This document shows positions 8,117 to 13,773 of a stretch of DNA of 64,000 nucleotides, in pieces (the first letter of the stretch is position 1; the number at the start of each line of letters is the position of its first letter). Below the pieces are notes generated by a model. It saw only the letters and a program-made list of their open reading frames with translations. It had not been told where the DNA came from and did not search any database. The translations under genes were made by a program, and so were the position numbers. The stretch lies in contig VYCW01000077.1 in the NCBI GenBank assembly GCA_009843735.1, positions 1-64,000 of the forward strand, given 5' to 3'. Origin of the DNA: Acidimicrobiaceae bacterium (GTDB lineage: Bacteria > Actinomycetota > Acidimicrobiia > Acidimicrobiales > Aldehydirespiratoraceae).

Positions 8117-9151
8117 CTAGCCGAGCAGGCGGATCTGGCCTGAGCCTTCGGTGACCCGGCCGATGACGGCGGCCTCGTGGCCCGAGAGTCGAAGCTCGGT
8201 CACCGCGGCCAGGCCGGCGTCGTGGCTCACCATGCCGAGCAGCAGACCCCCTGATGTCTGCGCGTCGGCGAGCAGCGTCACCCCCACCTCGCTCGCGCCG
8301 CCGGTGTCCAGGTTCGGAGAGGCCCAGTCGAGGTTCCGGGCCGTGCCTCCGGGCACGATCCCCGACGCGGCCAGCTCCCGGGCTCCCTCGATCACGGGAA
8401 CCTCGCCGACCGAGATCTCCAGGTCCACGCCGGACTCCTGAGCCATGCGCAGGCCGTGGCCCAGCAGGCCGAAGCCGGTCACGTCGGTGGCCGCGGTGGC
8501 GCCGTGGCGCATCGCGGCGGCCGCGGCCGCCTCGTTGGACCGGGTCATTTCCCGTACAGCCCGGTCCACCACCTCCGGCCGAGCCTCCCCATGCTTGATG
8601 GCGGTGGCGATCACCCCGGTTCCGAGCGGCTTGGTCAGCACCAGCGCATTGCCGGGGCGCAGCCGCGAGTTCGTGAGCATCCGCGACGGGTTGACCTCGC
8701 CCACGACGGCCATGCCGTACTTGGGCTCGGGGTCGTCCACGGTGTGGCCCCCGCCCACAACGAAGCCGCAGGCTCGGGCCGTGTCCTCGCCGCCGGCGAG
8801 CACCTCGGTCAGGAGGTCGTTCGACAGCTCCTCGGAGTTCCAGGCCACCAGGTTCAGCGCCAACAGGGGCCGCCCACCCATGGCGTAGACATCCGACACC
8901 GAATTGGTGGCCGCGATACGGCCCCAGGTGCGGGCGTCGTCCACCAACGGGGTGATGAAGTCGGCGGTCAGCACCAGGGCACGGCCGCGGCCGACGCGCC
9001 ACACGGCCGCGTCGTCGCCGGTGGCCAGACCGACGAGGAGCTCCGGCGGGGGATCAGGGGTGAGGCCGCGCACAACTTGCGCGAGATCGCTTGGAGCGAG
9101 CTTGCAGCCTCAACCGGCGCCGTGGCTGAACTCTGTGAGGCGTCGAGCCAT
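8117..9151 (-). CDS. selD: Selenide, water dikinase (SelD), predicted selenoprotein with in-frame UGA at codon 14
   Basis: Minus strand from ATG 9151-9149 reads MARRLTEFSHGAG[TGA]GCKLAPSDLAQVVRGLTPDPPPELLVG..., then SelD domain (GDDAAVW, SVSDVYAMGGRPLLALN, GGGHTVDDPEPKYGMAVVGEV). The ORF track starts only at 9073. Confidence 0.9.
9067..9083 (-). promoter_or_regulatory. Candidate bacterial SECIS hairpin downstream of the selD UGA
   Basis: RNA-sense CGCGCA-AGUUG-UGCGCG, 6-bp stem and 5-nt loop about 32 nt after the UGA at 9112-9110. Confidence 0.5.
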
Positions 9152-9166
9152 CGCGATCACCCCCTT

Positions 9167-9195
9167 CCTGCGGACACTTGTGGAGTGTCCGCAGG
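9167..9195. repeat. Perfect 12-bp inverted repeat between selD start and the divergent NMO-type gene
   Basis: CCTGCGGACACT-TGTGG-AGTGTCCGCAGG; ends 16 bp upstream of the selD ATG. Confidence 0.8.
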
Positions 9196-9276
9196 ATAGG
9201 CGGCTCGCCGCGGGGCACCCCCGGCGGCCGCCGGGAAACGGCCGAGCCGGAACGAGGCGGCCAGTAGGGTGCAGCC

Positions 9277-10338
9277 GTGCTCATCGACCGGAGGCTCCAG
9301 ACCAGGGCCACCGAGCTGTTCGGCGTGCCCTATCCGGTCGTCCAGACGGGAATGGGATGGGTGGCCGGCCCGTCGCTTGTGACCGGCACCGCGGAGGCGG
9401 GCGGCCTCGGGATCCTGGCCGCGGCCACCATGACTGTCGACGAGATGGAGGCGGCGATAGCCGAGGTCCGGTCCCGCACCGAACGGCCCTTCGGAGTGAA
9501 CCTGCGGCCCGACGCCGTCGATCTGGCCGAGCGGGCCGACCGGCTGGTCGCCGCCCGGGTGCGGGTCGCCAGCTTCGCCGGGCCGCCCCCGGCGCAGGTG
9601 GTGAAGCGTCTGCGGGACGGCGGCGTGCTGGTGATGCCCACCGTGGGCGCCCGCCGCCATGCCGAGAAGATGGCCGAACTGGGCGTGGATGCGGTGCTGT
9701 GCCAGGGTGGCGAGGGCGGCGGCCACACCGGCTCGATACCCACCTCGTTGCTGCTGCCCCAGGTGGTCGACGCGGTGGACGTCCCGGTGATCGCGGCGGG
9801 CGGGTTCCACGACGGGCGGGGCCTGGCCGCGGCTCTGGCCTGGGGCGCGGACGGCGTGGCCATGGGCACCCGCTTCCTGCTCACCGCCGACTCCAAGGTC
9901 CCCGACGCGGTGAAGTCGGTGTATCTGAGCACTCCGGTGACGGGCACGGTGGTGTCGAGCAGCATCGACGGCAAGCCTCAGAGGGTGATCCGCACCAGCC
10001 TGGTCGACTCGTTGGAGTCGGCCCGGATCACCCGCCTGGTGCGGGCTGCGGCCAATGCGTGGCGGTTCCGGGGCCTCACCGGCATGTCGGTGCCGGCGAT
10101 GCTGCGCGAGGGGATGGCCATGCGCCGCAGCCAGCAGATGACTTGGAGCCAGATGGCCATGGCCGCCAACGCGCCCATGCTGACCCGGGCGACCATGGTG
10201 AACGGCGACATCGACGCCGGGATCCTGCCCACCGGCCAGTGCGTGGGAGTGGTGGACGACCTGCCGACGTGCGCGGAGTTGGTGGAGCGCATCGTGGCCG
10301 AGGCGGTCGCCGCCCTCGACCGGGTCGCACCCCACTAG
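9277..10338 (+). CDS. Nitronate monooxygenase-like flavoprotein (NPD family)
   Basis: GMGWVAGPSLVTGTAEAGGLGILAAATM, GGEGGGHTGSIPTSLLLPQV, GADGVAMGTRFLLTADS. Confidence 0.9.
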   Translation: MLIDRRLQTRATELFGVPYPVVQTGMGWVAGPSLVTGTAEAGGLGILAAATMTVDEMEAAIAEVRSRTERPFGVNLRPDAVDLAERADRLVAARVRVASFAGPPPAQVVKRLRDGGVLVMPTVGARRHAEKMAELGVDAVLCQGGEGGGHTGSIPTSLLLPQVVDAVDVPVIAAGGFHDGRGLAAALAWGADGVAMGTRFLLTADSKVPDAVKSVYLSTPVTGTVVSSSIDGKPQRVIRTSLVDSLESARITRLVRAAANAWRFRGLTGMSVPAMLREGMAMRRSQQMTWSQMAMAANAPMLTRATMVNGDIDAGILPTGQCVGVVDDLPTCAELVERIVAEAVAALDRVAPH

Positions 10339-10358
10339 CGCCACTAGCGTCCGGTCCC

Positions 10359-11072
10359 ATGTGCGGTCGCTACGTGTCGGCCACCCCGCCCGACGAGGTC
10401 GCCAAGTACTTCGGCGCGCTGGCTCCGGCGCCCGAGCACGCCCTGTCGCCCAACCACAACGTGGCCCCGACCCAGACCGTGTACGCGGTTCGGGAGCGTG
10501 AGGGTGTCCGCAGCCTCGACACCCTGCACTGGGGGCTGGTGCCGTTCTGGGCCAAGGATCCCAAGATCGGCAACCGGATGATCAACGCCAGGGCCGAGAC
10601 CGTCGCCCAGAAGAACGCCTTCCGGGTGCCGTTCTCCCGCCGGCGCTGCATCATCCCGGCCGACGGCTTCTACGAGTGGCAGCGCCTTGAGGGCTCCAAG
10701 CGCAAGCAGCCCATGTTCATCAGCCGTCCCGACGGGGAGCCGTTCGCGTTCGCAGGCTTGTGGGAGAGGTGGCGCGACGACAACAGCCTCGACGCCGACG
10801 GCGAGCCCCTGGAGCTGCGCTCGTGCACCATCATCACCTGCGAGGCCAACGACGCCATGGCCGAGATCCACGACCGGATGCCGGTAGTGCTGCCGCCCGG
10901 CGCCTGGGACCTCTGGCTGGAGCCGTCCAACGCCGACGCCGAGGCCGCAGCCGCCCTGCTGGTGCCGGCCCCTTCGAGCCTGATCCGAATGCACCCGGTG
11001 TCAACCGAGGTCAACAACGCCCGCAACAACGGCTCGCACCTCATCGAGCGGGCCGACCCGATCGAAGCTTGA
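10359..11072 (+). CDS. SRAP-domain protein (YedK/HMCES type)
   Basis: MCGRYVS N-terminal catalytic Cys, NVAPTQ, WGLVPFWAKD, NARAET, CIIPADGFYEWQ. Confidence 0.93.
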   Translation: MCGRYVSATPPDEVAKYFGALAPAPEHALSPNHNVAPTQTVYAVREREGVRSLDTLHWGLVPFWAKDPKIGNRMINARAETVAQKNAFRVPFSRRRCIIPADGFYEWQRLEGSKRKQPMFISRPDGEPFAFAGLWERWRDDNSLDADGEPLELRSCTIITCEANDAMAEIHDRMPVVLPPGAWDLWLEPSNADAEAAAALLVPAPSSLIRMHPVSTEVNNARNNGSHLIERADPIEA

Positions 11073-13194: not shown

Positions 13195-13773
13195 CTACCC
13201 CTGCGGAATGGCCGAGTAAGCGGGAAAATCCGGGTCAACCACGGAGTGGATCCCCAAGCCCATGGCCACCCGGTTCACGTAGTTGAGGTGCGCGCACTGG
13301 GCGTTGGCGTCGACGATGTCGAGGTCGTCGAGGCCCGCGGCCCGCAACTCCTCCACATCGGCCTCGGTCACCGAGCCGGGAGAGCGGGTGAGCTTCACCG
13401 CGTAGCGCACCACCGCGGTATCGACCGGGGCTAGCCCCAGGGACTCGAAACAATCGGGGTCGGCGGCCAGCTTGGCGATGGCCTCATCGTCGAGGCCGGT
13501 CTGGCGCAGCTTGATCGTCACCTGGCTCATGCAGTGGACGGTGCCGTTGATGGCCGAGGTCACGAAGCTGATCAGGTTGCGCTGGTGGGGGGTGAGGCGC
13601 GACGGGCATTTCTCCGTGGCCGCGTACAGGTCCAGGCGGGCGGCCACCAGCGCCGGGTGCAGCGACCCGGCCATGGTCATCTCGGTGGGCTCGCCCAGCG
13701 CCCGGGCCTGGCGGTTGTAATGGTCCCTCAACTCGCCCTCGGCCTCATCGTATGGAATCGTGGAGATCCACAT
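13195..13773 (-). CDS. Carboxymuconolactone decarboxylase/AhpD-like protein
   Basis: FVTSAINGTVHCMSQVTIKLRQTGLDDEAIAKL resembles the AhpD-like helix but has TVHC rather than CxxC. Confidence 0.65.
   Translation of the reverse strand: MWISTIPYDEAEGELRDHYNRQARALGEPTEMTMAGSLHPALVAARLDLYAATEKCPSRLTPHQRNLISFVTSAINGTVHCMSQVTIKLRQTGLDDEAIAKLAADPDCFESLGLAPVDTAVVRYAVKLTRSPGSVTEADVEELRAAGLDDLDIVDANAQCAHLNYVNRVAMGLGIHSVVDPDFPAYSAIPQG

Follow-up and report, generated by a model that had tools for sequence, protein, structure and literature searches.

Selenocysteine codon in the selD frame

The gene for selenophosphate synthetase (selD) in this DNA carries a UGA shortly after its start, which raises the question of whether this codon ends the frame or is read as selenocysteine (Sec). 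The window, i.e. the whole stretch of 64,000 nucleotides that was analysed, contains on its minus strand a frame that begins at ATG 9151, passes through the UGA at 9112-9110 and reaches its stop at 8119-8117, being otherwise open throughout. Read through the UGA, selD (8117..9151, minus strand) has 344 codons before its stop, the 14th being Sec, and its 344-aa product begins MARRLTEFSHGAG-U-GCKL. ORF calling with table 11 finds a start only at GTG 9073 and a protein of 318 aa, so the catalytic loop is lost from the called ORF, and the 13 N-terminal codons (9113..9151, minus strand), which are under purifying selection, are absent from it. A Shine-Dalgarno-like purine run is visible 5' of the ATG (9160..9168, minus strand), and several relatives have a G-rich run before their start.

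With the UGA taken as Cys in the searches, the product scores 366 bits against the TIGR00476 equivalog (cut-off 125) and 342 bits against NF002098 (cut-off 299). It can be aligned over almost its whole length with the SelD proteins of E. coli (PDB 3u0o) and Aquifex (2yye), and the UGA (9110..9112, Sec14) falls on the catalytic loop Cys of both. SHGAG-U-GCKL aligns with SHGAGCGCK of 3u0o, which is the glycine-rich N-terminal loop HGAG-[C/U]-xCK. A preliminary description, made from the sequence by itself, had already given this frame and these coordinates, named the gene selD, placed the UGA at the catalytic position and reported it as missed by ORF calling; the profile score, the N-terminal alignment and the call from GTG 9073 bear it out on each point. 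A nitronate monooxygenase gene lies nearby (9277-10338, plus strand). Two long antisense ORFs, 8904-11072 (plus strand, 722 aa) and 9157-10344 (minus strand, 395 aa), overlap selD and this gene and appear to be shadow frames of high-GC DNA rather than genes.

Conservation of the UGA

When 51 genomes of the same family were searched in six frames, 45 yielded a SelD. The N-terminus is covered in 44 of these, and each of the 44 has a single internal stop, which is a TGA at the same position. Among 109 wider relatives, the codon there is TGA in 52 and Cys (TGC or TGT) in 57, and nothing else occurs. At the level of the class (247 genomes), most of the SelD matches listed, more than 100, have one TGA, while 44 of the listed matches that cover the N-terminus have none.

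The sequence upstream of the TGA evolves as protein-coding DNA: its codon differences are synonymous in 119 cases and nonsynonymous in 23, compared with 29:88 for random single changes in the same sequence. Conservation also extends over the residues from the UGA to 9073. Thus, selD shows the two features by which a Sec-encoding UGA gene is recognised, namely Cys in homologues at the UGA and a frame conserved on both sides of it. With the covarying hairpin described below, the arrangement goes well past what chance would produce.

Judged by its named relatives, the genome lies near Acidimicrobiia. In a quick tree, the SelDs of Acidimicrobiia with Sec are a single group. Two Cys-SelDs of Pseudonocardia (L082 and L088) join this group in a clade with full support, apart from the other Actinomycetes. 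This placement is compatible with a change from Sec to Cys, as a candidate direction only. L088 can form a 5-bp stem at the position of the selenocysteine insertion sequence (SECIS), GCCGA-ACUGC-UCGGC, possibly a remnant of that element. The strongly reduced genomes of about 1 Mb in this class (family f27: G055, G061, G119, G134, G212 and others; loci L215-L217) retain a UGA-SelD, and several of them retain SelB-like genes as full-length matches just below the curated cut-off.

The SECIS hairpin

Bacterial SECIS elements are described by a stem of 4-16 bp, a loop of 3-9 nt with a G in the first two positions, a spacing of 16-37 nt and a minimum free energy of at most -7.5 kcal/mol (PMC13188914). 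Downstream of the selD UGA, the hairpin CGCGCA-AGUUG-UGCGCG (hairpin II, 9067..9083, minus strand) has a stem of 6 bp and the loop AGUUG at 9077-9073, whose first base is separated from the UGA by 32 nt. Alone, it folds with -8.3 kcal/mol, and it falls within every one of the published constraints.

In 48 distinct Sec-SelD sequences, 97.2% of the cells of this stem are paired and 22 cells are changed on both sides. The stem scores 0.239 for covariation, compared with 0.058 for shuffled alignments and no more than 0.062 for slid controls; as the sequences are related, the shuffles do not give a probability, and it is the slid controls that keep the relatedness. The same columns pair poorly in 57 Cys-SelDs, e.g. 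pair 32-44 forms in 3 of the 57. Codon usage within the family points the same way: the stem codons are nearly fixed (Ala GCG 30/30, Val GTG 28/28, Arg CGC 29/30) and no other codon for the same amino acid in selD varies less, while among the Val codons it is the one in the loop that varies most. This is selection on the RNA and not on the protein. An Rfam scan of the selD SECIS region returned chance matches only. The fit of this hairpin to bacterial SECIS geometry, which the preliminary description had proposed, therefore holds for all published criteria, for the folding energy and for covariation in the 48 sequences.

A second hairpin between the UGA and the SECIS hairpin

Between the UGA and hairpin II lies a second helix, UCGCU-CCA-AGCGA (hairpin I, 9084..9102, minus strand; alignment columns 11-29). 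It had initially been described as a shorter alternative to the SECIS hairpin. This view has to be revised, as hairpin I adjoins hairpin II on its 5' side and is compatible with it, covaries, and is largely lost in Cys-SelDs. RNAalifold predicts both hairpins together on the alignment, with covarying pairs in hairpin I. All five inner pairs form in 39 of 48 Sec-SelDs and in 1 of 57 Cys-SelDs. Twenty more distant N-termini were also compared. Those read as UGA-SelD mostly retain the SECIS hairpin and hairpin I, sometimes in another register, and in the Cys-SelDs among them the pairing is largely lost. In very AT-rich small genomes, the hairpins are weaker and shifted.

The pairing of hairpin I could also be a by-product of the codons for KLAPGEL, the helix itself having no function; this would touch its role as a spacer and not the decoding of Sec. 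The outer pairs (columns 11-29, 14-26 and 15-25) do form in Cys-SelDs too, because the codons are shared. However, pairs 16-24 (46/48 Sec against 14/57 Cys genes) and 18-22 (43/48 against 6/57) discriminate between the two kinds of gene. Nine distinct sequences have an A at column 22, where codon 8 is Ser (AGC or AGT) instead of Gly (GGC); in eight of these nine the third base of codon 6 (Ala) is U and in none is it C, so that a U-A pair replaces C-G. The association of the Ala third base with the first base of the Ser/Gly codon has a Fisher p of 2e-5, calculated with no phylogenetic correction. Moreover, the Gly8 codon is the least variable among 37 Gly columns, and many distant Sec-SelDs retain a hairpin at this place, some in the other register. 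Taken together, this makes a mere by-product of the codons rather unlikely.

As to what a functional hairpin I might do, the clear SECIS elements of fdhA, the Prx-like UGC gene and an AhpD-like gene in this genome place the start of the loop 18-20 nt downstream of the UGA. The Prx-like UxxC gene has an NGU loop that begins 34 nt after the UGA and is preceded by a hairpin, both in this genome and in its congener. From these distances we infer that hairpin I may fold out most of the spacer and so shorten the path from UGA to loop. More generally, the selD signal of Acidimicrobiia, Gemmatimonadota, Myxococcota and the other aligned Sec-SelDs might be a two-hairpin SECIS, in which a spacer hairpin lets a distal SECIS act at the standard distance, with the same layout in the Prx-like UxxC gene. 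We advance this general form tentatively and would give it a little less than an even chance. If true, SECIS spacing in bacteria would be a distance in the folded RNA and not a count of nucleotides. No paper on such a spacer hairpin was found in the literature searched, which is weak evidence of novelty.

Machinery for selenocysteine incorporation

Contig C25 carries selA and selB next to each other. Both exceed the cut-offs of their equivalog models, selA with 369 bits (cut-off 268) and selB with 297 bits (cut-off 242). In this assembly, which is 84.6% complete, a search for tRNA-Sec (RF01852) gave no match over the cut-off, and the matches fetched are tRNAs for Gly, Ser, Leu, Arg and Tyr. 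However, the match between the selC locus of the congener and contig C45 extends to the first base of the contig. The 55 nt of C45:1-55 (L071) are identical to the 3' part of the congener's selC, with the anticodon just beyond the contig edge; selC is therefore most probably present and cut by the assembly. The preliminary description had predicted selA, selB and selC elsewhere in the genome, and had named their absence as one outcome that would tell against a Sec codon. This outcome did not occur: selA and selB were found as predicted, while for selC the 3' half was found and the full gene with its anticodon is cut off by the contig end.

Intact tRNA-Sec genes of 64-69 bits are present in 43 relatives, and 30 of 30 that were fetched are called SeC with anticodon TCA. 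Three relatives with a UGA-SelD (G007, G018 and G022) have no tRNA-Sec above 60 bits, plausibly owing to incomplete assemblies. In G010, G011 and G014, too, selC is no more than 450 bases away from the end of its contig, which suggests that this locus tends to break assemblies.

SelB scores over the cut-off in 130 of the 247 class genomes, and several of the 1-Mb genomes have full-length matches below it. Genomes with a Cys-SelD, such as G145 and G086, have SelB as well. An elongation-factor-like gene with one in-frame TGA was seen in another relative (G273:C61:8550-9698) and may be a pseudogene, an error or something else. SelU/YbbB, the tRNA 2-selenouridine synthase (TIGR03167), has no match in this genome or in the congener G003.

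Other selenoprotein candidates

That other selenoproteins would prove to be mis-annotated had likewise been predicted, and UGA genes for FdhA, four AhpC/TSA-fold proteins and two AhpD-like proteins were indeed recovered. The fdhA gene reads NNIDSCNRT-U-HAPSV, with one TGA in this genome and in 5 of 5 congeners tested; the best PDB matches of its product are formate dehydrogenases, including E. coli FdhH, and its TIGR01591 score of 641 is slightly under the cut-off of 666. In each of the four AhpC/TSA-fold and two AhpD-like genes, a single TGA stands at the redox position. Two of the former are of the Prx (TxxU) type (ASTAG-U-TKE and AMTAG-U-TRQ), one is a Prx-like UGC gene (SW-U-GC) and one a Prx-like UxxC gene (PH-U-PTC), while the AhpD-like (CxxU) genes read C-HY-U and C-HI-U. 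According to the marine selenoproteome of the Global Ocean Sampling (GOS), Prx (TxxU), Prx-like UGC, Prx-like UxxC, AhpD-like (CxxU) and FdhA are all selenoprotein families (PMC2398784), and the seven UGA genes other than selD were assigned to these by Pfam domain and motif.

Judged by homology and by the position of the UGA, the genome thus appears to encode about eight selenoprotein candidates, all in known Sec families. This count is a lower bound, as a few protein families plus SelD were searched. With a published threshold of at least six selenoproteins, about eight UGA genes would make the genome selenoprotein-rich, though its group is unnamed among the rich phyla of the survey.

A hairpin pattern was derived from selD, with a stem of at least 6 bp, a 5-nt loop NGUNN and a spacing of 14-34 nt. 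It is found again in 4 of the 7 other UGA genes, against 4 of 1372 TGA triplets of the window (0.29%), a contrast that is somewhat flattered since the spacing range was set after some of the genes had been seen. The exact NGU pattern with a 5-nt loop is missing from loci L180, L182 and L196, which makes a SECIS less certain in these three genes. In L182:963-1327 (G000:C138:2762-3126), a Prx TxxU gene, the sequence lies in two frames in this genome and is open in the G003 gene (L185); this is either an assembly frameshift or a decaying gene.

A search for the CCG domain (PF02754) gave no UGA gene. A crude scan for codon bias, run over the window to find frames interrupted by UGA, returned nothing convincing; it missed selD itself and is therefore insensitive. 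Near selD, at 13195-13773 (minus strand), lies a CMD/AhpD-family gene with no internal stop, the two other CMD genes of the genome being the UGA (CxxU) candidates.

Proposed mechanism and alternative explanations

In the explanation that we favour, selD encodes a selenophosphate synthetase with Sec at the catalytic position of its glycine-rich loop. The UGA at 9112-9110 would be decoded by tRNA-Sec, the product of selC, charged via SelA and delivered by SelB. SelB would bind hairpin II, whose AGUUG loop lies 32 nt downstream of the UGA, and hairpin I would fold the intervening RNA, bringing the loop to about the distance seen in the other selenoprotein mRNAs of the genome. SelD would then make the selenophosphate for its own Sec and may also supply the roughly seven other candidate Sec proteins (FdhA, the four AhpC/TSA-fold and the two AhpD-like proteins). 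We hold this explanation, a Sec-SelD whose UGA is decoded through selA, selB, selC and a SECIS, to be nearly certain, the spacer role of hairpin I being a proposal within it.

Three other accounts of the UGA were considered and rejected on the grounds of conservation, upstream selection, machinery and redox positions. Were the UGA a true stop, the protein would start at GTG 9073, the sole start offered by table-11 ORF calling, and would be a SelD-like ATPase of 318 aa lacking the catalytic loop. It is hard to reconcile this with the strong protein-level selection on the 13 codons 5' of the UGA, with the conserved residues from the UGA to 9073, with a lost loop that is the catalytic one, or with relatives that have Cys there in a continuous frame, and a true stop is accordingly most improbable. 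Single-base errors do happen in metagenome-assembled genomes and Cys is the alternative residue of the family, so the codon might really be TGC or TGT; yet 44 family genomes, each assembled separately, share the TGA, as do more than 100 of the class matches listed, and the RNA structure is present with TGA and largely absent with Cys. This conservation across genomes excludes a sequencing error in practice, and its probability is negligible. A general reassignment or suppression of UGA, with e.g. Trp or Cys inserted by another tRNA and no part for SECIS and SelB, could draw on the several genes of the genome that have an in-frame UGA. However, all of these UGAs match a redox Cys/Sec position in alignments, the genome has selA, selB and part of selC, and the SECIS is conserved, leaving very little room for this account either.

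Comparison with known systems

Table-11 ORF calling truncates selD such that the catalytic residue is lost. The same truncation is expected across a large class of environmental bacteria, UGA-SelD being the commoner form among the genomes searched. Sec-SelD has long been known, including in Actinobacteria, from Rubrobacter xylanophilus and Symbiobacterium (PMC1794560). A UGA-SelD is therefore a known kind of gene, to which the Sec-SelD of Acidimicrobiia is a well-supported addition. The literature searched held no paper on selenoproteins of Acidimicrobiia, beyond a sponge study on symbiont bins in which SelA and SelB co-occur in bins of various phyla. The interesting part here is the two-hairpin signal together with the rich selenoproteome.

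The Sec-SelDs of Rubrobacter xylanophilus and Symbiobacterium share with this one the UGA in place of the catalytic Cys codon, the selA, selB and selC genes and a downstream bacterial SECIS; the present gene differs in its Acidimicrobiia lineage and in having two hairpins after the UGA, not one. The Cys-SelDs of E. coli (3u0o) and Aquifex (2yye) belong to the same family and can be aligned over almost the whole length, but have Cys for Sec, and in the related Cys-SelDs that were examined both RNA hairpins are largely lost. The families of the GOS marine selenoproteome (PMC2398784) are the same as those found here, where they occur together with SelD in one Acidimicrobiia genome. Finally, the bacterial SECIS model (bSECISearch; PMC13188914) is a single stem-loop, and the covarying second hairpin in the spacer of selD lies outside it. 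This conserved hairpin offers a testable refinement of that model, in which the spacing rule may be three-dimensional.
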